DNA of 64,000 nucleotides from Agromyces soli. Lineage in GTDB: Bacteria; Actinomycetota; Actinomycetes; Actinomycetales; Microbacteriaceae. Within the stretch, counting starts at the first letter, position 1. Every line of letters begins with the position of its first letter. Shown piece by piece: positions 29,307 to 39,771 of the stretch. The position numbers were made by a program, and so were the translations under genes. Below the pieces are notes generated by a model that ran no database searches, was not told where the DNA came from, and saw only the letters and a program-made list of their open reading frames with translations. The stretch lies in the NCBI RefSeq assembly GCF_022811605.1, contig NZ_CP094533.1:1984001-2048000 (forward strand), in the 5' to 3' direction.

Positions 29307-31981
29307 CGCACCTCCTCCCGCCCGGGGCGGCCCGCGGCGACCGTGACCGCGCGGGCGGCGATCAGGGCGACCACTGCGGTCGCCACCGCGAACGCGCCGA
29401 GCGTCGCGACGAGCGGCCACCAGTCGAGCACGATGGCCGGGGTGAGCGCGGCCGGCGCGCCGGGCACGGCGGCGCGCGCGAGCTCGGCCGAGGTCGCCCA
29501 CGCCGCGACCGCACCGATCGCCGCCCCCAGGACGATGGCGGTGCCGACGGCCGCCGCGAGCTCGGCGAATCGCGCCCGCCCCTGCATCGCGGCCGGCGCG
29601 CCCAGGGCGCGGAGCACGAGCACCTCGCCCCGCCGGGAGGCGCCGAGCGCGGCGGCGAGGGCGATGAGCGCGGCGAGGGCGGCGGCGAGGGCGCCGATCG
29701 CGCCGAGCCAGAGCGCGGTGATCGCGGGGGAGACGAGGCTCGCCGTCGACGCCGCGCCCCGGGCGAGCGCCACCGCGCCGCCGGGCCGGTCCCGGTCGAG
29801 GGCGGCGACGACGGCAGCCGGATCGGCGGCGCCGAGCCACAGCTCGTCGGCGCTCGGCGTGCGTGCGCCGGCCGCCGTCACGGCGGCGTCGAGCTCCGCG
29901 CGGTCGGCGAGCACGCCGAACTCGCCCGCTCCCGGGACGACCTGCGCGACGGCGGCGACGCGCGCGTCGATCGTGCCGTCGGCGCTGCCGAGCCGGAGGG
30001 AGATGCGGTCGCCGGGGCCCGCGCTCGTGCTGGCGGCGAGCTGTTCGTCGATCGCGACCGGGAGGAGCGAGGCATCCGCCGCGTCGATCGCCCGGATCGC
30101 GAGCTGCACGTCATCGGGGAGCCCCGGCGCCACCTGCGGCAGCACGTCGAGCCCCGTGGCGATGAGCGTCGCCGTCTCCGGCCCCACTCGGATCTCGCGC
30201 CGCACGACCGGCTCGACGACCACCTCGGGCAGCGCTGCGGCGGCGTCGGCCGCGGCAGCCGGGTCCGCGGCGCCGACGACCCGGACCTCGCCGCCCGTGG
30301 CGAGTGCGGCGACGTCGGCGTCGAACCGCTGCCAGGTGCCCGCGACGCTCGCGGTGAGCACGATGCCGGCGACGCCGAGCATCGCGGTGAAGGAGGCCGC
30401 AGCGAACATGGGGGCCCGCCGGGCCAGCTGGCGGAGCGGGAGCGAAGGCACGAGCCCCGGCCGCGCCGAGGCGATGCGCTCGAGCAGCCGGGAGACGAAC
30501 GGCGTGCAGGCGAGGGCGCCGAGCGCGAGCGCGAGCAGCACGAGCACGGGGGCCAGCACCGCGAGCGGATCGACCGCCGTGCCGCCGTCGGCGGAGCGCA
30601 CGAGCGGGGAGCCGTAGAGCCGGAACTGCCAGAGCGACACGGCCGCCGCGACCGCGACGAGGACCGTGCCGCCGAGGGCCGCGGCGCGGGTGCCGCGGCC
30701 GCTGTCGTCCCCGGTCGAGCGGGTGACGGGCCGCCGTGCCTCGCCCCACGCGCTCGCCGCGAGCAGGACGACGGCGACGAGCACCGAGACGGCGGCGACC
30801 GCCGCGGCGATCCACAGCGATCGTGGCTCGCCCGGGCGGAGCAGGAGCAGCGCGAGTTCGCCGGCCGAGGCGCCGAGGATCGCCGCGGGGGCGCCGACGG
30901 CGGCCGCCTCGCCCGCCTGCCAGCCGACGAGCTGTCGGGTCGCGGCTCCCCGGGCGCGCAGCAGCACCGTCTCGCCCCGGCGGGCGCCGGCGAGCAGCGT
31001 GCCGAGCCGGCCGAGGGCGGCGATGCCGGCCGCCCCGAGGAGCAGCAGCGGCAGCGGCGTGATCGCGCGCACCGCGTCGAGGCCGGCCGTCGCCGCGTCG
31101 ATCGTCGCGGGCAGGCCGCCGAGCCGGGTCAGACCGTCCTCGCCGATGCCCGGCTGCGCGGCGAGCGCCGGGGTCGTGCGCGCGATGTCGCCGGTAAGCT
31201 CGCGCGCGGAGTCCGGAGTGAGCGCGTCGATGATCGGCGTCGCCGTCCAGCGCACCCGGACGGCGACCGGCAGTCCGTCGAGGGCGGTCTCATCGACGAG
31301 GAAGGGGCCGGCGGCTCCGTCGGCCGAACCGGTGGCGATGAGCGGCTCGCCGAACCAGGCGGGCGCCCTGGCGTCGTCGGGCAGCCAGGTGCCGACGATC
31401 TGCAGGCGACGGTCGGCGAGCTCGACGGTGTCGCCGAGCGCGAGCCCGAGTGCGTCCGCCGCGCCCCGGTGGACGGCGGTCGGGATGGCGGCTGCCTCGT
31501 CGGCGCTCGTCGCATCCGGCCAGACGCCGTCGACGAGCCGGGCCCGTTCCGCGATCGCCGGGTCGGCGAGGAGTACGACGCCGACCGCCGCGGCGTCGGT
31601 GCCGTCGGCCGTGGTGCCGTCGGGCGCGGTGCCGTCGGGCGCGGTGCCGTCGGGCGCGGTGCCGTCGCCCAGCGGCACGGCCGAGCTTTCGGCCGAGCGG
31701 TCCCAGCCGATCGTCTCGGCGGACAGGGTGCGGTCGAGCACGGCCGCGCCGGCCTCGGCCTGTGCCTCGGGATCGATCGAGCGGCGGATCTCCCAGCGCA
31801 CGGCCCCGTCGGCTCCGGCGGCGGCGGCAACGCGCTCGCGCAACGCGGTGACGGCGGCGCCGGCGGCCTGATCGATGATCGCAGTGCCGACACCGGAGAG
31901 GATGAGGACGACGGCGGCCACGCCGGCGAGCACACCCGAGCGCGCACGGGCACGAGCCAGTGCCAGCCGGGCGGATGCCAC
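29303..31981 (-). CDS. FtsX-like ABC transporter permease (first gene of operon)
   Basis: Second FtsX-like permease, 892 residues, organised like its neighbour at 26559: an N-terminal helix (GVLAGVAAVVLILSGVGTAI), a large extracytoplasmic domain, central helices and a final FtsX block (ALWLGAIGALAAALAALIAL). I chose GTG 31981 because GAGGAGG precedes it at good spacing and the membrane helix then begins at residue ~15; the open frame extends further upstream without membrane-protein character. A run of DGTAP repeats lies in the first extracytoplasmic domain. Together with the ATPases it may form a heteromeric MacB-like system. Confidence 0.87.
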   Translation of the reverse strand: MASARLALARARARSGVLAGVAAVVLILSGVGTAIIDQAAGAAVTALRERVAAAAGADGAVRWEIRRSIDPEAQAEAGAAVLDRTLSAETIGWDRSAESSAVPLGDGTAPDGTAPDGTAPDGTTADGTDAAAVGVVLLADPAIAERARLVDGVWPDATSADEAAAIPTAVHRGAADALGLALGDTVELADRRLQIVGTWLPDDARAPAWFGEPLIATGSADGAAGPFLVDETALDGLPVAVRVRWTATPIIDALTPDSARELTGDIARTTPALAAQPGIGEDGLTRLGGLPATIDAATAGLDAVRAITPLPLLLLGAAGIAALGRLGTLLAGARRGETVLLRARGAATRQLVGWQAGEAAAVGAPAAILGASAGELALLLLRPGEPRSLWIAAAVAAVSVLVAVVLLAASAWGEARRPVTRSTGDDSGRGTRAAALGGTVLVAVAAAVSLWQFRLYGSPLVRSADGGTAVDPLAVLAPVLVLLALALGALACTPFVSRLLERIASARPGLVPSLPLRQLARRAPMFAAASFTAMLGVAGIVLTASVAGTWQRFDADVAALATGGEVRVVGAADPAAAADAAAALPEVVVEPVVRREIRVGPETATLIATGLDVLPQVAPGLPDDVQLAIRAIDAADASLLPVAIDEQLAASTSAGPGDRISLRLGSADGTIDARVAAVAQVVPGAGEFGVLADRAELDAAVTAAGARTPSADELWLGAADPAAVVAALDRDRPGGAVALARGAASTASLVSPAITALWLGAIGALAAALAALIALAAALGASRRGEVLVLRALGAPAAMQGRARFAELAAAVGTAIVLGAAIGAVAAWATSAELARAAVPGAPAALTPAIVLDWWPLVATLGAFAVATAVVALIAARAVTVAAGRPGREEVR
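31598..31670 (-). repeat. 15-bp coding tandem repeat (DGTAP units)
   Basis: Three perfect copies of GGTGCCGTCGGGCGC (plus-strand reading, from 31613), flanked by two degenerate copies, encode a Gly/Thr/Pro-rich linker in the permease's extracytoplasmic domain. Copy number could vary in frame. Confidence 0.8.
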
Positions 31982-32057
31982 GCGCGGAGCCTCCTCGATG
32001 CAGGGTTCGGGTCGCCGCGGCGATCGGTGCAGCGGTGCGCCGGCGTCGAATTCGGAC

Positions 32058-32063
32058 AGCTTA
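32058..32063 (-). promoter_or_regulatory. -10 box TAAGCT for the FtsX/MacB-type operon
   Basis: On the minus strand TAAGCT lies 76 bases before the GTG at 31981. It is only 15 bases from the -35 box of the divergent exporter promoter, so the two promoters are close to face-to-back. Confidence 0.35.
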
Positions 32064-32078
32064 CCCCGCACCGGGGAC

Positions 32079-32108
32079 TTGCGTACCACTCCGATCTCTG
32101 AATATTCT
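32079..32108 (+). promoter_or_regulatory. Promoter of the leader ORF and heterodimeric ABC exporter
   Basis: TTGCGT (32079-32084) and TATTCT (32103-32108) are separated by 18 bases, the best-formed promoter in the window. The local AT-rich patch around AATATTCT stands out from the surrounding sequence. Expected start at about 32115. Confidence 0.55.
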
Positions 32109-32545
32109 GTAAGGCTGTCGCACCACGAGTTCGGCAGGCTATGGATCACGAGACGATGACGCAGGAGGACCCGATGTCAACAGCCCACACTTCCGCCCCT
32201 TCGGTCGCGGTCGCTGGCGCTGGCATCCGCGCCCCGCGCCGTCCCGCTGCCACGCCGGAGCACTAGCTCCGACCCGTCGAGCCGGACTCGGTCCGGCCGA
32301 AGCGCCGCTCCCGCGGCCATCATCGCCGGGCGCCCCCGGTCGCGCGAACTCCTTGCGGAGCCTCGCCGTCGGGCGCTCCGGGCCCCCATCCAGGCACCGG
32401 TCCCGGTTCGTGTAGATTCCGGCTCCGCTTCCGCATCGGCACCGTTCGCCGTCGACGACGACGCTCCGGTCCGCCATCCGCATCTCATCGCACGCCTCCG
32501 CGTGCGCGGCCCTCGCCGCCGCACGCCGTTCCGAAAGGGCCATCC
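32109..32545 (+). promoter_or_regulatory. Long structured 5' leader of the ABC exporter operon
   Basis: About 430 bases separate the promoter from the exporter start. The stretch holds the 30-codon leader ORF (32174-32266), then, 14 bases after its stop, a hairpin with arms GCCGGAC and GTCCGGC (32281-32297), and a second possible stem CGGAGC/GCTCCG (32356-32361 with 32375-32380). No T-run that would mark a classical terminator is visible. The rest is GC-rich sequence without another recognisable gene on this strand. Confidence 0.45.
32174..32266 (+). CDS. Candidate leader peptide of the ABC exporter (30 residues)
   Basis: Small ORF beginning ATGTCAACAGCC and ending CACTAG. AGGAGG lies five bases before the ATG, a better ribosome site than that of the exporter gene itself. 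The peptide starts MSTAHTSAPSVAVAGAG and ends IRAPRRPAATPEH; its Arg-Pro-rich C-terminus could slow ribosomes. An in-frame ATG at 32156 has no ribosome site. Position between a good promoter and a multidrug-type exporter resembles leader peptides that sense ribosome-targeting antibiotics, such as that of Bacillus bmrCD. I did not recognise any homologue, and the function is inferred only from position. Confidence 0.5.
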   Translation: MSTAHTSAPSVAVAGAGIRAPRRPAATPEH

Positions 32546-34438
32546 TTGACCACCCCACCCACCCATCCGCCCGGTCACGCCGCCGAGGCGCCCCGTCTCG
32601 GCGCGGTGCGTGCGCTCTGGCGCCTCCGCGAGTACGCGGGGCCCGCGCTGCCGGCCTTCGCGATGAGCATGGGCGCGGCACTGATCGCGCAGCTGTTCGC
32701 CCTCGCGATCCCGCAGGTGATGCAGCAGATCGTCGACGGGCCGCTCGCGCAGCGCGACGCGACCGCGGTCTGGCCGCTCGCGATCCTCGTCTTCGTGCTC
32801 GGCGCGATCGAATCGATCCTCTACGCGCTCCGTCGTTGGCTCGTCGTCGGCCCGGGCACCAAGGTCGAAGCGCGCATGCGCGACGCCCTGTACGCGAAGC
32901 TGCAGGATCTCCCGGTGAGCTTCCACGACCGCTGGCCGAGCGGGCAGCTGCTCTCGCGCGCCGTCAGCGACCTGAGCCTCATCCGCCGCTGGCTGAGCTT
33001 CGGCCTCGTACTGACCGGGGCGAACCTCGTCATCATCGTGGTCGGCGTCGGCATCCTGATGTCGATGAACTGGCTGCTCGGTCTCATCTTCCTCGTCTGC
33101 TCGCTGCCGCTCTGGTGGGCCGGCTACCGCTTCGAGGGGGAGTACTCCGAGAAGTCGCGCCTCAGCCAGGACCAGCAGGGCGACCTCGCGACCGCGGTCG
33201 AGGAGTCGGTGCACGGCATCCGCGTGCTCAAGGCGTTCGGCCGGGGCAAGCACGCGCTGTCGACGTTCCGGGCGCAGGCCGAGTCGCTGCGCCGCACCGA
33301 GATCGAGAAGGCGCGCCTCGACGCGAACATCTGGGTGTGGATCATGGTCGTGCCGGCCATCGCGCTCGGCGCGTGCCTCGTCGTCGGCATCTGGCTCGCG
33401 GCGAACGGGCAGCTGACGGTCGGCGAACTCGTCGCGTTCTTCGCGACCGCGACGGTGCTCGCCTGGCCGATCGAGTCGATCGGCTTCATGCTCGCGTTCG
33501 CCCTCGACGCGCGCACCGCGACCGACCGGTTCTTCGACATCATGGACAGCGAGAACACGATCCTCGACCCGGACGCGCCGCGCACGCTCGAGCGTCCGCG
33601 CGGCGAGCTCGCGTTCGAGGGGGTGCACTTCCGCTACCAGGATGCGCCGTCGCGATTCCCCGACCTGCTGGACGACGTGGAGCTCGTCGTCCGGCCGGGC
33701 GAGACCATGGCGCTCGTCGGGCTCACCGGCAGCGGCAAGACCACGATCACCGCGCTCACGACCCGCCTGTACGACGTGACCGGCGGCGCCGTCACGCTCG
33801 ACGGCGTCGACGTGCGCGCGTTCACCCGCGAGGAACTGCGCCGCCACATCGCCATGGCGTTCGAGGACGCCACGCTGTTCAGCGCCTCGGTGCGCGAGAA
33901 CGTGCTGCTCGGGCGTCCCGAGCTCGCCGGGGACGACCCGGCCGTGCAAGCGGAGGCGCAGCGCGTCCTCGAGGAGGCGCTGCGCATCGCGCAGGCCGGC
34001 TTCGCGTACGAGCTGCCCGAGGGGCTCGAGACGAAGGTCGGCGAAGAGGGCATGAGCCTGTCCGGCGGTCAGCGCCAGCGGCTCGCCCTCGCGCGCGCGG
34101 TCGCGGCCAAGCCGGCCGTGCTCGTGCTCGACGACCCGCTGTCCGCGCTCGACGTCACCACCGAGGCGAAGGTCGAGGAGGAGTTGCGGAGCGTGCTCGC
34201 CGACACCACCGCGCTCATCGTCGCGCACCGCCCCTCGACGGTCATGATGGCCGACCGGGTGGCGCTGCTCGAGGCCGGGCGCATCACGGCCGTCGGCACG
34301 CACTCCGAGCTGCTGCGGGAGTCGGAGCACTACCGCTTCGTCATCTCCAGCCTCGAAGAGGAGGAACGCGCCGGCAGCGACCCGGCCGACTCCATCCGCG
34401 AAGAACCCGAGACCGATCGAGAGGAGGTCGCCCGATGA
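32546..34438 (+). CDS. Heterodimeric ABC exporter, subunit A (degenerate Walker B)
   Basis: Membrane-ATPase half-transporter of 630 residues: six membrane helices to about residue 330, then the ATPase. Walker A is GLTGSGKTT (~391), signature [12 protein letters not shown] (~504), Walker [12 protein letters not shown] (~525), with Asp where the catalytic Glu should be, and switch His in IVAHRPST. It therefore contributes the non-catalytic Walker site and the good signature. The start is TTG 32546 with GAAAGG eight bases upstream; no ATG lies before the first helix. The partner gene overlaps its stop by 4 nt. Probably exports drugs or amphiphiles as a BmrCD/TmrAB-like pair. Confidence 0.92.
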
Positions 34439-36240
34439 GCGTCACCGGCGTTCAGGGAGAAGAGCGCGAGCACTACACGCGCGCCGAATCGCGGCAGATC
34501 CGCCGGCGCTCCATGCGGCTGCTCGGCTCGCTGCTGCATCCGCTCCGCCCCACCCTGTGGCTCACCGTCATCGCGGTGATGCTCTCGTCCGCCGCGCAGG
34601 TCGCGGGCCCGGCGATCATCGCGTACGGCATCGACACGGGCATCCCCGCCCTGATCGGGCAGAACTGGTGGCCGGCGGCGCTGTCGGGCGCCGCGTACGT
34701 CGTGACCGGCCTCGTCGGCGCGTTCCTCATCGCGGTGTACATCCGGCTCTCGGCGCGGATCAGCCAGGCCGTGCTCATCGACCTGCGCACGCGGGTGTTC
34801 CTGCACACGCAGAAGCTCTCGCTCGAGTTCCACGAGTCGTACACGTCCGGCCGGATCATCTCGCGCCAGACGAGCGACCTCGACGCCATCCGCGAGCTCA
34901 TGGACGAGGGGCTCACGCTGCTCGTCCGCGGGCTCATGTACATGGTGTTCACCGCGGTGATGCTCATCATCCTCGACTGGCCGTCGGGTGTGGTGCTGCT
35001 CATCGCGCTCGTGCCGCTCGGCATCCTGACCCGGTGGTTCCAGGTGCGCTCGCAACAGCTGTTCCGCCGCTCGCGCGTCGCCTCGGCCCGCCTCATCGTG
35101 CAGTTCGTGGAGACGATGACCGGCATCCGTGCGGTGCAGGCGTTCCGCAAGGAGCGGCGCAACGAGCGGGAGTTCGGCGCGCTCGTCGAGGACTACCGGG
35201 ATGTCAACGCGAAGGTGCTCGGCCTGTTCGCGGTGTTCAACCCCGGGCTCGCGCTCATCGGAAACACCGCGGTGGCCGCGACGATCGTGCTCGGCGGCTT
35301 CCGCGTCGTCGACGGCTCGTTGCAGGTCGGCGTGCTGCTCGCGGCCGTGCTGTACACGAAGCGCTTCTTCGACCCCATGGAAGATCTCGCGATGTTCTAC
35401 AACGGGTACCAGTCCGCCGCGAGCGCGCTCGAGAAGATCTCGGGCGTGCTCGAGGAGGAGCCGAGCGTTCCCGACCCCGAGCGACCGGTCGACCTGTGGA
35501 ACGCGAGCGGCCGCGTGCGCTTCGACGGCGTCGAATTCGCGTACACGAAGGACCGGGTCGTGCTGCCGCGCTTCGATCTCGACATCCCCGCCGGGCAGAC
35601 GATCGCCCTCGTGGGATCCACGGGCGCCGGTAAATCGACGCTCGCGAAGCTGATCGCCCGGTTCTACGACCCGAGCGACGGTGCGGTCACGCTCGACGAC
35701 CTCGACCTGCGCACCCTGCACCCCAAGGACCTGCGCCGCGCGATCGTCATGGTCACGCAGGAGGCGTACCTGTTCTCGGGTTCCGTCGCGGACAACATCG
35801 CGCTCGGCAAGCCGGACGCCTCGTTCGACGAGGTGGTCGCTGCGGCGAAGGCGGTGGGTGCGCACGAGTTCATCGAGGGACTGCCGAACGGCTACGACAC
35901 CGACGTGAACAAGCGCGGCGGCCGGGTGAGTGCGGGACAGCGGCAGCTGATCTCCTTCGCCCGGGCGTTCCTGGCGAACCCGGCCGTGCTGATCCTCGAC
36001 GAGGCGACGAGCTCGCTCGACATCCCGAGCGAGCGGCTCGTGCAGGAGGGACTCACGAAGCTCCTCGCCGACCGCACGGCGATCATCATCGCGCACCGGC
36101 TGTCGACGGTCGCGATCGCGGACCGGGTGCTCGTCATGGAGCACGGCCGGATCGTCGAAGACGGCTCGCCGGCCGAGCTGATCGGCGGCGACGGCCGCTT
36201 CGCCGCGCTGCACGCGGCGTGGCGCGACTCGCTCGTGTGA
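34435..36240 (+). CDS. Heterodimeric ABC exporter, subunit B (degenerate signature)
   Basis: Partner half-transporter of 601 residues. Six membrane helices occupy about residues 40-330. The ATPase has Walker [10 protein letters not shown] (~392), a degenerate signature [15 protein letters not shown] (~497) in place of LSGGQ, a canonical Walker [12 protein letters not shown] (~518) with the catalytic Glu, and the switch His in [10 protein letters not shown] (~552). With subunit A it gives one complete and one dead ATP site. Translationally coupled by ATGA overlap with a GAGGAGG ribosome site inside the upstream gene. A strong two-way terminator follows. Confidence 0.94.
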
Positions 36241-36255
36241 GCGGATCCTGAGCAG

Positions 36256-36294
36256 CACGAAGGCGGGCGACCCGATGGGTCACCCGCCTTCGTG
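36256..36294. terminator. Bidirectional terminator between the exporter and the secreted protein gene
   Basis: Outer arms of 12 bp (36256-36267 and 36283-36294), a 1x1 mismatch and an inner 5-bp stem GACCC/GGGTC around GAT make a long hairpin 15 bases after the exporter stop. Confidence 0.8.
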
Positions 36295-36380
36295 GGCGCG
36301 TGGGCGCGTGGGCGCGTGGGCGCGTGGGCGCGTTGCGCGCGTGACGCGTGGGCGCGTGGGCGCGTGGGCGCGTTGCGCGC
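36293..36380. repeat. 8-bp tandem repeat array (TGGGCGCG)
   Basis: Five perfect TGGGCGCG copies (36293-36332), a 16-base interruption TTGCGCGCGTGACGCG, three more copies (36349-36372) and a second TTGCGCGC. Every element is a multiple of 8 bases, so the phase is kept throughout. It begins inside the terminator stem and ends 12 bases before the stop of the peptidoglycan-binding gene, in the 3' untranslated region. Confidence 0.9.
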
Positions 36381-36392
36381 GTGCGGGTACGG

Positions 36393-37728: not shown

Positions 37729-39558
37729 ATGATGGCGCCGGGCCGGAACGGCCGCATCGTCCGTCGGGCGATCACGCTCGCGATCGCCGTCGGCTTGAGC
37801 CTGGCGATGGCGATCTCCGGATATTGGGCGACGCCGGTCGAGGCGCGTCCGGAGACCTCGTACGCGACGCTGCACGCACTCGTTCCGCTCGTGTTCGCCG
37901 CCTGCGCCGGAGTGGCGTGGGCGATCAGCGAGAGCCGCTGGCCCGCCCGTTTGATGGTCGCGTTCGTCGTGCTCTGGATCCCGCAGTCGATCTACGCCGT
38001 CATCGGCGACCTCGGTTGGCTCTGGCCGATCGTCCGCGGACTCGACTTGAGCTGGGCGGTCGTGACCGGGATCATCGTGCTCATCTATCCCCGCGGCATC
38101 CTGCGTGAGCGCTTCGACCGCTGGGTGGTGGGCATCGCCGCGGTCGCTTCGGTGGTGAATCTCTTCGCCGTGCTGCTGCTGGCCGAGCCCGGTGACGGCG
38201 TGTGCGCCTGCAACGCGCCGAACCCGTACCGTGTGGCCGCGGTGCCGGAGCTCTTCGCCGCGATCGACGTCGGCTACCGGATCATCGGCGTGGGCCTGGC
38301 GCTCGCCATCGCGGTGCGGCTGCTCTTCCGCTGGATGCGGGGCAGCGTGCCGGCGCGGACCGTCGCGTTCCTGATGCCGCTCGCCCTGCTCGCCTGGGCG
38401 ACGACGCTCACCGCGCAGGCGGTGAGCTACGCAGCGGAGGCGCGGGGCGACCAGATGCTCGCGACGATCTCGCTGATCGCGATCGCCTCGATTCCCGTGA
38501 GCTTCGTCGCGGGCGTGGCGCACGCCAGGAACATGCGAGCGCGGGTCGCCGACCTGATGAGGATCACCCGGGAAGGCGCCGACCGAGGGCTCTGGGCCGA
38601 GTCGCTCGCGCGGACGCTGCGGGACGCCTCGGTGCGGGTGTACTGGTGGGATGAAGAGCGTGGGGTGTACGCCGATGCGACCGGCACGCCCATCCCAGAC
38701 GGCGACGCCGATCCGCGGGGGAGCCAGAGCGTGCTCCCGGTCGCCTCGCCGCTCGGCGTGCCGATCGCGCTCATCCGGCATGACCGGGTGCTGACGGACA
38801 ACATGCGCCTGCTCGACGGCGTGTCGAGCGCGCTGCGGCTCTCGGTGGACAACGGCCGCCTCCGCTCCGAGATCGAGCGCACGCTCGCGCACGTTCGCGA
38901 GTCTCGGCAGCGCATCGTCGAGGCGGGGGACGAAGCCAGGCGGCGCATTGAGCGCGACCTGCACGACGGGGCCCAACAGCAGCTCGTGTCCCTCGCCATG
39001 CGGCTGCGGCGGACGTCGGATCAGGCGCGGGATCGGGGCATTCCGGCGATCGCCGACGAGGTGGACGCGGAGATCCTGCTCCTGAACGCCGCGCTGAAAG
39101 AGCTTCGCGAGCTGGCCCAGGGCATCCATCCGAGCCTGCTCGCCCAGGGGGGACTGCCGCTGGCGCTGCCCGAGCTCGCCGGCAGGTGCTCGGTGCCGAC
39201 TGAAGTGCGGGTCGATGTCGCCGGCCGGCTGCCGGAAGTCGTCGAGGCGACCGCCTACTTCGTCGTGGCGGAGGCGCTCGCGAACATCGACAAGCACGCC
39301 AGGGCAACACGAGCATGGATCGACGCGGCGTCGGACGGCGGCGAGCTCCGGCTGGGCGTCCGCGACAACGGCGCGGGAGGCGCCAGGCTCGACGCCGGAA
39401 CCGGCATCGTCGGGGTCGTCGACCGTGTCGAGGCGGTCGGCGGGATCCTCGACCTCGTCAGCGAGCCGGGGCACGGCACGACTCTCGCCGTCCGGCTGCC
39501 GCTCGTCGACGGCGCGAGCGGGCCGCAGCCGCAGCCACCGCAGCCGCACCCGAGCTGA
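37729..39558 (+). CDS. Sensor histidine kinase (HisKA_3/NarX type)
   Basis: Membrane sensor kinase of 609 residues. About eight hydrophobic segments fill residues 10-265, a possible membrane-embedded sensor. A GAF-like stretch (ARTLRDASVRVYWWDEERG) comes next, then the dimerisation/phosphoacceptor box RRRIERDLHDGAQQQLVSLA, in which His in DLHDG is phosphorylated, and an ATPase domain with EALANIDKHARAT, RDNGAGGA and GIVGVVDRVEAVGG. The short C-terminal PQPQPPQP tail runs into the first unit of a tandem repeat, which supplies the stop codon. ATG 37732 is an alternative start. Confidence 0.93.
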   Translation: MMAPGRNGRIVRRAITLAIAVGLSLAMAISGYWATPVEARPETSYATLHALVPLVFAACAGVAWAISESRWPARLMVAFVVLWIPQSIYAVIGDLGWLWPIVRGLDLSWAVVTGIIVLIYPRGILRERFDRWVVGIAAVASVVNLFAVLLLAEPGDGVCACNAPNPYRVAAVPELFAAIDVGYRIIGVGLALAIAVRLLFRWMRGSVPARTVAFLMPLALLAWATTLTAQAVSYAAEARGDQMLATISLIAIASIPVSFVAGVAHARNMRARVADLMRITREGADRGLWAESLARTLRDASVRVYWWDEERGVYADATGTPIPDGDADPRGSQSVLPVASPLGVPIALIRHDRVLTDNMRLLDGVSSALRLSVDNGRLRSEIERTLAHVRESRQRIVEAGDEARRRIERDLHDGAQQQLVSLAMRLRRTSDQARDRGIPAIADEVDAEILLLNAALKELRELAQGIHPSLLAQGGLPLALPELAGRCSVPTEVRVDVAGRLPEVVEATAYFVVAEALANIDKHARATRAWIDAASDGGELRLGVRDNGAGGARLDAGTGIVGVVDRVEAVGGILDLVSEPGHGTTLAVRLPLVDGASGPQPQPPQPHPS

Positions 39559-39771
39559 CACCAGCAAACCGAGCTGACACCAGCAAACCGAGCTGACACC
39601 AGCAAACCGAGCTGACACCAGCAAACCGAGCTGACACCAGCAAACCGAGCTGACACCAGCAAACCGAGCTGACACCGGCAACCGAGCTGACACCGGCAAC
39701 CGAGCCGACACCGGCAACCGAGCTGACACCAGCCACCGAGCTGACACCAGCCACCGAGCTGACACCCGCAG
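39550..39771. repeat. 18/19-bp tandem hairpin repeat array, 12 units
   Basis: Six identical 19-bp units (CCGAGCTGACACCAGCAAA) are followed by six 18-bp variants with CCGGCAA, CAGCCA or CCGCAG endings. Most units contain GCTG-ACAC-CAGC or a close variant, a small 4-bp stem with 4-base loop. The first unit contains the kinase stop codon TGA. There are no spacers, so this is not a CRISPR. The plus strand carries frequent stops, while the minus strand is open in all three frames. Confidence 0.95.

Follow-up and report, generated by a model that had tools for sequence, protein, structure and literature searches.

Introduction

In the tryptophanase operon of Escherichia coli, a ribosome held at the tnaC stop codon shields a downstream Rho-loading site, which requires a specific arrest peptide as well as tryptophan. 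In Bacillus subtilis, the short open reading frame (ORF) bmrB precedes bmrCD, whose product is a heterodimeric ABC multidrug exporter (PMC10632425), and translation of bmrB gates this exporter; the bmrB coding region is described as containing an intrinsic terminator together with a putative antiterminator (PMC4191407). For topAI-yjhQ of E. coli, the ribosome on the upstream ORF (uORF) toiL is reported to signal stress on translation, and Rho terminates transcription further downstream (PMC12121999). An actinobacterial uORF, located before the resistance determinant whiB7/wblC, is described as responding to several translation inhibitors (PMC12121999, PMC7157823).

Here, we analyse a leader ORF that precedes the genes of a multidrug-type ABC exporter in a stretch of Agromyces DNA (the window, 64,000 nt in full length). 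The leader is documented across an actinobacterial family, in which leader-less relatives serve as natural controls, and an unexpected mark of it is a strong preference for UAG as stop codon. Among the papers searched on Microbacteriaceae leader peptides and uORFs, none described this leader, which is weak evidence of absence, as subscription papers were mostly outside the coverage of the search. The original prediction had proposed ribosome-mediated control of the exporter. A conserved leader ORF of the class known for such control was indeed found before a multidrug-type exporter; the stalling Arg-Pro peptide end and the special RNA structure that formed part of the proposal were not borne out.

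Organisation of the locus

The features of the locus are as follows (positions of the window).

32079..32108, + strand: promoter with -35 TTGCGT (32079-32084), an 18-nt spacer and -10 TATTCT (32103-32108), from the letters and their conservation
32109..32120, + strand: discriminator and predicted transcript start
32115..32137, + strand: 5' hairpin P1 (CTGTCG / CGGCAG), from 38 aligned Agromyces leaders
32163..32168, + strand: leader ribosome-binding site AGGAGG, 5 nt before the ATG at 32174
32174..32266, + strand: leader ORF of 30 codons, MSTAHTSAPSVAVAGAGIRAPRRPAATPEH, with UAG stop at 32264-32266 and counterparts in relatives
32281..32297, + strand: post-stop hairpin H1, GCCGGAC-TCG-GTCCGGC, 14 nt past the leader stop
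32267..32545, + strand: C-rich, G-poor, untranslated spacer, a candidate Rho-loading stretch by its C-G skew
32533..32538, + strand: exporter ribosome-binding site GAAAGG, preceding the TTG at 32546
32546..34438, + strand: ABC exporter subunit 1, 630 aa, TTG start (Pfam, PDB sequence matches, motifs)
34435..36240, + strand: ABC exporter subunit 2, 601 aa, in ATGA overlap with subunit 1 (Pfam, motifs)

Read letter by letter, the promoter, the AGGAGG-led ORF of 30 codons, the hairpin and the TTG start of the exporter all lie where the original prediction had placed them.

The exporter operon encodes two ABC half-transporters, both with Pfam ABC_membrane and ABC_tran domains, of which subunit 1 carries a degenerate Walker B motif (LVLDD) and subunit 2 a canonical one (LILDE). 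In PDB sequence searches, the top matches of both subunits were eukaryotic P-glycoprotein-type chains, followed by half-transporters such as TM288 and 5mkk, the latter presumably TmrAB; subunit 1 additionally matched YheI, which we take to be BmrC. Because both subunits match multidrug exporters in the PDB, we classify the exporter by sequence as heterodimeric and multidrug-type, with one degenerate site and a presumed pairing of the two subunits. These same matches of subunit 1 (YheI, TM288, 5mkk) indicate that the original prediction went too far in regarding leader control as not known for this exporter family, as BmrCD belongs to the same class. The nearest records are those of A. mediolanus, with exporter identities of 98% and 96%.

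A consensus scan yielded no sigma-70-like site at the scan threshold, so that the promoter call rests on conservation. The promoter motif, which sits upstream of the leader ORF, was present in 115 of the 126 leader loci as compared to none of their 126 reverse complements and 0.6 of 126 shuffles, and the element at 32109..32120 contains a GGCTG that is invariant in 38 aligned Agromyces leaders and may be conserved as part of the promoter rather than for pairing. The window gave no match to Rfam families at gathering scores.

Several further observations concern the neighbourhood. Upstream of the exporter promoter, the minus-strand gene of an FtsX-type permease contains a 15-bp tandem repeat in five copies (31592-31667), read as a repeated DGTAP in the permease, and an 8-bp/40-bp tandem repeat lies directly 3' of the second exporter gene (36291-36383). 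A third, 19-bp tandem repeat of about 12 copies with 96% matches (39550-39770) lies where a histidine kinase-like gene (ORF 37729-39558) ends. In several relatives the upstream neighbour differs: the ORF that precedes the promoter has FEKLEGCVTCLSVRVR as its end in L089, L099, L108, and L155, with SVRIR in L118 and L122, the FEKLEGCVTCLSVRVR end presumably resembling the C-terminus of the dimethylarginine dimethylaminohydrolase/arginine deiminase family, whereas the window has its FtsX-type gene on the opposite strand at this place.

Conservation and spread of the leader ORF

Orthologues of the exporter were found in 58 of 60 genomes of the genus and in 171 of 199 genomes of the family, and among named genomes 80 of 243 were kept. 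Loci were taken from part of these genomes and from 60 further regions, and the exporter was matched in 213 of 215 (L212 and L215 were dropped for want of an exporter match); another 35 duplicate loci were set aside. For the leader count only loci with at least 500 nt upstream were used (177 loci), while at least 300 nt were required for the counts of promoter motif, promoter distance and skew and for the rows of the tree. As near-identical strains remain, none of these locus counts equals a number of independent events.

A strict detector asked for an ATG, 15-48 codons and a suitably spaced GGAGG or AGGAG. It identified a counterpart of the leader ORF in 132 of the 177 unique upstream regions of 480 nt, 103 of them with the full AGGAGG, so that, as in bmrB, a small ORF led by a ribosome site of its own lies between promoter and exporter. 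Among the loci with at least 70% exporter identity, all 61 carried it. The controls stayed near zero, i.e., none of 177 reverse complements, a mean of 2.9 of 177 in base shuffles (which, here and for the post-stop hairpin below, keep base composition only), and none in exporter-internal stretches (127 of the 177 loci being long enough). The small ORF predicted to be conserved upstream of orthologous exporters is thus present, and the loss of the ORF or its ribosome site in close relatives, named as one refuting outcome, did not occur, both being kept. As to the other such outcome, a transcription start downstream of 32266, the conserved promoter lies on the upstream side of the ORF. We regard it as nearly certain, judged from these sequences, that a conserved leader ORF exists before the exporter.

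The strict detector found no leader in 45 of the 177 loci, among them L061, L065, L117, and L191, which upon inspection have a leader with a weaker Shine-Dalgarno sequence or greater length. The five loci that represent other families of this order, L026-L030, have no leader ORF. One Agromyces genome (G061) holds two relatives of the exporter, at loci L169 and L170 with 54% and 74% identity; the 74% relative has a leader and for the 54% one none was detected.

The leader appears as a single element of its genome. The 5'-end motif TANNCTGNARGGCTG has a single occurrence in the complete genome of the window. For the leader start motif, 38 of 60 Agromyces genomes gave one match each and the remaining 22 gave none, the window's own among them at 3 mismatches. 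A looser search returned 22 matches to the start motif in the window's own genome, and none of the six that were read leads a right-sized short ORF before an exporter. Membership of the leader in a regulon was accordingly rejected, given the single 5'-end motif and the looser matches that lack the leader-exporter arrangement. Across the family, the 5'-end motif was present in 111 of 199 genomes, mostly once; part of these matches is due to chance, as a backward control pattern also matched in roughly 55 of 199.

Stop codon, start region and peptide

Of the 126 leader ORFs, 101 end in TAG, 16 in TAA, and 9 in TGA, and TAG also prevails in leaders from beyond the Agromyces clade (44 of 64). Neighbouring genes show the opposite preference, with 150 TGA and 39 TAG among 199 stops, a set that includes the exporter genes (80 loci, L076-L155), and 48 TGA and 12 TAG among the 60 stops of non-exporter genes; these reference genes were called by codon bias and not by annotation. 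In the other two frames of the leader ORFs, TGA outnumbers TAG by 101 to 14, and therefore composition does not explain the UAG preference. The bias argues that ribosomes do terminate at the leader stop. Readthrough of UAG into the exporter was considered and rejected, since the length of the spacer modulo 3 is spread over 0, 1, and 2 (23/16/23 in 62 loci); in the window itself, the length of the spacer is divisible by 3, and an open frame extends 93 codons above the TTG.

A second bias marks the start of the ORF. At leader positions 2-8, ACA accounts for 109 of 286 Thr codons as compared to 8 of 124 in other genes, an enrichment that may reflect an effect on initiation or a built-in pause. 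The leader of the window begins with TCA-ACA (32177-32182), the rare ACA falling within positions 2-8. Threonine makes up 12.4% of the leader-peptide residues and is concentrated near the start, and the peptides are rich in Ala, Ser, and Thr overall (0.403 versus 0.208 in the exporter; 0.335 in the +1 frame).

The body of the peptide differs between loci. Gaps are absent from the ORF in all ten sets of close relatives chosen for comparison, and in each the similarity of the ORF exceeds that of the spacer behind it. Among codons with a single difference, 43 of 142 changes were synonymous where 34.7 were expected, the other two frames giving 50 versus 42.4 and 49 versus 49.2, in ten groups that were picked by the analyst and in which pairs share sequences; changes at the three codon positions numbered 53/43/46. 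A clear synonymous bias, as anticipated in the original prediction, did not emerge from this test. Likewise, the Arg-Pro end that had been suggested as a stall motif (RAPRRP) occurs, among the loci printed, in the A. mediolanus group only, and the body differs elsewhere. A long run of a single residue, as looked for in an amino-acid attenuator, was absent from the printed leader peptides, and a conserved arrest peptide of the tnaC type was not found, the peptide body being hardly constrained. Judged from these comparisons, start, ribosome site, length and stop of the leader are kept and its peptide is hardly constrained.

The C-rich spacer and a proposed model of attenuation

The roughly 280 bases between leader and exporter had been taken for structured RNA, which was not confirmed: the fold of the spacer in the window has a z of +0.46 against dinucleotide shuffles, 66 of 100 of which are at least as stable. 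In the 97 of 126 leader loci that were long enough, the spacer was less stable than the exporter coding sequence in 85; compared with its own antisense, it gave the less stable fold in 96. What distinguishes the spacer is its base composition. Its C-G skew in the window (0.206) is reached by 0.8% of 6374 overlapping stretches of the window on both strands, and in 126 loci the mean is 0.257, with values above 0.1 in 123. The untranslated region before the leader ORF has a skew of -0.055 (above 0.1 in 15 of 109), and leader-less 5' untranslated regions behind the same promoter have 0.072 (above 0.1 in 9 of 19), a control of 19 loci with shorter regions (median 72 nt versus 134.5) from which nine loci had been removed, four for a weak or long leader and five from other families. 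C-richness is a hallmark of Rho loading and not proof of it. As in tnaC, C-rich, G-poor and poorly folded RNA thus lies directly past the leader stop, and Rho is encoded in the window's genome.

The conserved set comprises the promoter, a hairpin at the 5' end, an ORF of 16-45 codons with a strong ribosome site, an ACA-rich start and mostly a UAG stop, in Agromyces also a hairpin some 16 nt past this stop, and a C-rich, G-poor, weakly folding stretch. From this set, attenuation by the leader ORF appears likely, and the leader is probably a translation-sensing switch for the pump. Our tentative preference among more specific models is a cis-acting attenuator in which the fate of the ribosome at the UAG would decide whether Rho gains access to the C-rich spacer. 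In unstressed cells, ribosomes would frequently initiate on the leader, finish at the UAG and depart, and the exposed spacer would allow Rho to end most transcripts before the exporter. If translation is perturbed, for example, by a drug, slow termination or a shortage of release factor, a ribosome would be held at or near the stop and shield the start of the spacer, so that Rho would be kept off and the exporter be made. Given that the peptide sequence is nearly free, the sensor would be the progress of the ribosome and its exit at UAG and not a specific arrest peptide. Furthermore, a stall early in the ORF exposes the spacer and should raise Rho termination, and the model therefore needs stalling near the stop. 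Also counting against it are the 45 of 177 loci in which the strict detector saw no leader, the weaker post-stop hairpin outside the Agromyces clade, and the wide movement of this hairpin under a ribosome mask in the window's own leader, which would rather suit a switch based on the hairpin. Translation of the ORF, the action of Rho, the direction of control and the sensing of a drug or other inducer are what we infer here.

A more pointed version, in which a family of uORFs reads UAG termination itself, independent of the peptide but dependent on the identity of the stop codon, with the rare-codon start and the Rho-loading spacer kept, is conceivable although somewhat doubtful; in this version, slowing at the stop by a drug or a shortage of RF1 would let the exporter be transcribed. 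If the mechanism holds, these leaders would be a tractable system in which to study, for high-GC bacteria, the gating of Rho by ribosomes that leave a stop codon, and they could help to predict the translation inhibitors that increase intrinsic export of drugs.

Alternative explanations

The main rival of the Rho-based reading, which we hold to be rather unlikely, is transcription attenuation as in bmrB, where translation of the leader would choose between a post-stop terminator hairpin without U-run and an antiterminator, such that drugs that slow translation raise the exporter. The class of the exporter and the order of the parts are as described for bmrB-bmrCD (PMC4191407), and a hairpin with a compensatory change does follow the stop. 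In 38 Agromyces leaders, 91.2% of the cells of H1 are paired and an A-U/C-G exchange is seen, which may reflect few events; for the 5' hairpin P1, the corresponding values are 87.6% and compensatory changes in four of five pairs. No shuffle out of 500 reached the pairing of either hairpin, although the shuffles do not allow for relatedness. A second hairpin after H1 was paired in 44.6% of cells as tested, one column off, and in 88.5% with a one-column slide. A post-stop hairpin scoring at least 15 was present in 87% of 54 Agromyces-clade leaders versus 16% of base shuffles, starting at a median offset of 16 nt from the stop (with quartiles of 15 and 17). This places it just beyond the footprint of a terminating ribosome, in line with the Rho-based reading; outside the clade the signal is weaker (38% of 64 versus 11%).

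The evidence for an actual switch is less favourable to this rival. H1 comprises 6-7 bp and lacks a T-run, and no intrinsic terminator-like site was found in the scanned region 31900-32700 of the window. When a ribosome was masked along the ORF during folding, the probability of the hairpin in the window swung from 0.32 with the ribosome at codon 18 to 0.96 at the stop, and the hairpin was likelier with a ribosome at the stop than without one in 21 of 47 loci and less likely in three; averaged over the 47 loci, however, it moved merely between 0.62 and 0.83. The alternative pairing has no compensatory support: the long-range 5'-ORF pairing and the ORF hairpin proposed by RNAalifold for the Agromyces leaders showed zero compensatory changes. 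The covariation analysis suggested in the original prediction thus lends support to P1 and H1 and none to long-range pairing between the 5' end and the ORF.

Less probable still is that the leader merely sets a fixed low level, in that ribosomes on it protect or expose the message and lower the expression of the exporter with no signal being sensed. Such a role would agree with the hardly constrained peptide and with the distribution of the leader, which resembles that of an adjustable dimmer. Of the 49 loci in which no leader was detected, 33 keep the promoter motif, versus none of their 49 reverse complements and 0.1 of 49 shuffles. The motif lies a median of 86.5 nt from the exporter in such loci (n = 32) as compared to 304 nt in loci with a leader (n = 115). 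On an exporter tree of 126 rows (FastTree), the leader state changes at least 10 times, 8 of which are forced by well-supported branches, and none of 500 shuffles gave as few changes; the 8-10 changes are a slight overcount, as L061, L065, L117, and L191 have leaders on inspection. Since the promoter is constant and the leader came or went no fewer than 8 times, we regard the leader as a separable insert that lies between promoter and exporter. The choice of UAG over UGA and of early ACA, on the other hand, suggests that the kinetics of ribosomes matter, which speaks against a fixed level.

Translation attenuation of the ermC/toiL type, in which leader RNA hides the ribosome site of the exporter until a stalled ribosome frees it, appears distinctly improbable. 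The order of the parts would fit, a precedent is reported in E. coli toiL-topAI (PMC12121999), and small YYCC-GNRA-GGRR stems were seen by eye around the exporter site in several Agromyces. Nevertheless, the site is on average as open as with shuffled spacers (0.39 versus 0.36; 45 of 54 clade loci tested), falls below its own shuffles in only 15 of 45 loci and has pairing partners that vary by locus. A ribosome mask on the ORF left the mean openness at 0.42-0.44 (47 of 54 clade loci), the window alone dropping to 0.20 with the ribosome at codon 1. In these predicted folds and locus averages, a leader RNA that covers the exporter ribosome site was therefore not found.

That the leader ORF encodes a working small protein or a trans-acting peptide is very improbable, for although its ribosome site is conserved and peTrpL of Sinorhizobium is reported as a precedent in multidrug regulation (PMC7298713), there is little or no synonymous bias, and neither Pfam (0 matches for six leader peptides) nor NCBIfam (0 for the peptide of the window) recognised a family.

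Finally, the mark of WhiB7 is an AT-hook, and membership in a WhiB7 regulon with an incidental uORF was rejected as scarcely credible: a GAAA at most 17 nt before the -35, which resembles the GAAAWY box described for WblC promoters (PMC7157823), occurs in 35% of the leader loci from beyond the Agromyces clade (n = 54) but in 15% of 61 Agromyces-clade promoters and not in the window, and none of the 14 WhiB proteins tested, out of 15 matches in the window's own and six related genomes, has RGR or GRP past WGGLSE, the two WhiB proteins of the own genome being devoid of a hook-like motif.

Comparison with known systems

The preferred Rho-based reading shares its central element with tnaC, namely the shielding of a Rho-loading site by a ribosome at the stop codon, which is proposed here, but the Agromyces leader peptide is hardly conserved. 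With bmrB-bmrCD, the locus has in common that a small ORF precedes the genes of a heterodimeric ABC exporter of the multidrug type, whose gating by translation of the ORF is a proposal in the present case. Unlike in bmrB, a terminator-like site was not found in the Agromyces window, the spacer is C-rich, and UAG is preferred. The uORF toiL opens a hairpin over the next ribosome site, and such a hairpin is unsupported in the Agromyces leader; what the two may share is a ribosome that reports on translation ahead of Rho. The uORF of whiB7/wblC is likewise actinobacterial, but it controls a regulator and not an exporter, and a WhiB7-like AT-hook protein was not found in the genomes examined. In mycobacteria, both uORF-linked attenuation and Rho-dependent ends in leaders are described (PMC12810186, PMC13236596), which provides a precedent for each in actinobacterial leaders.
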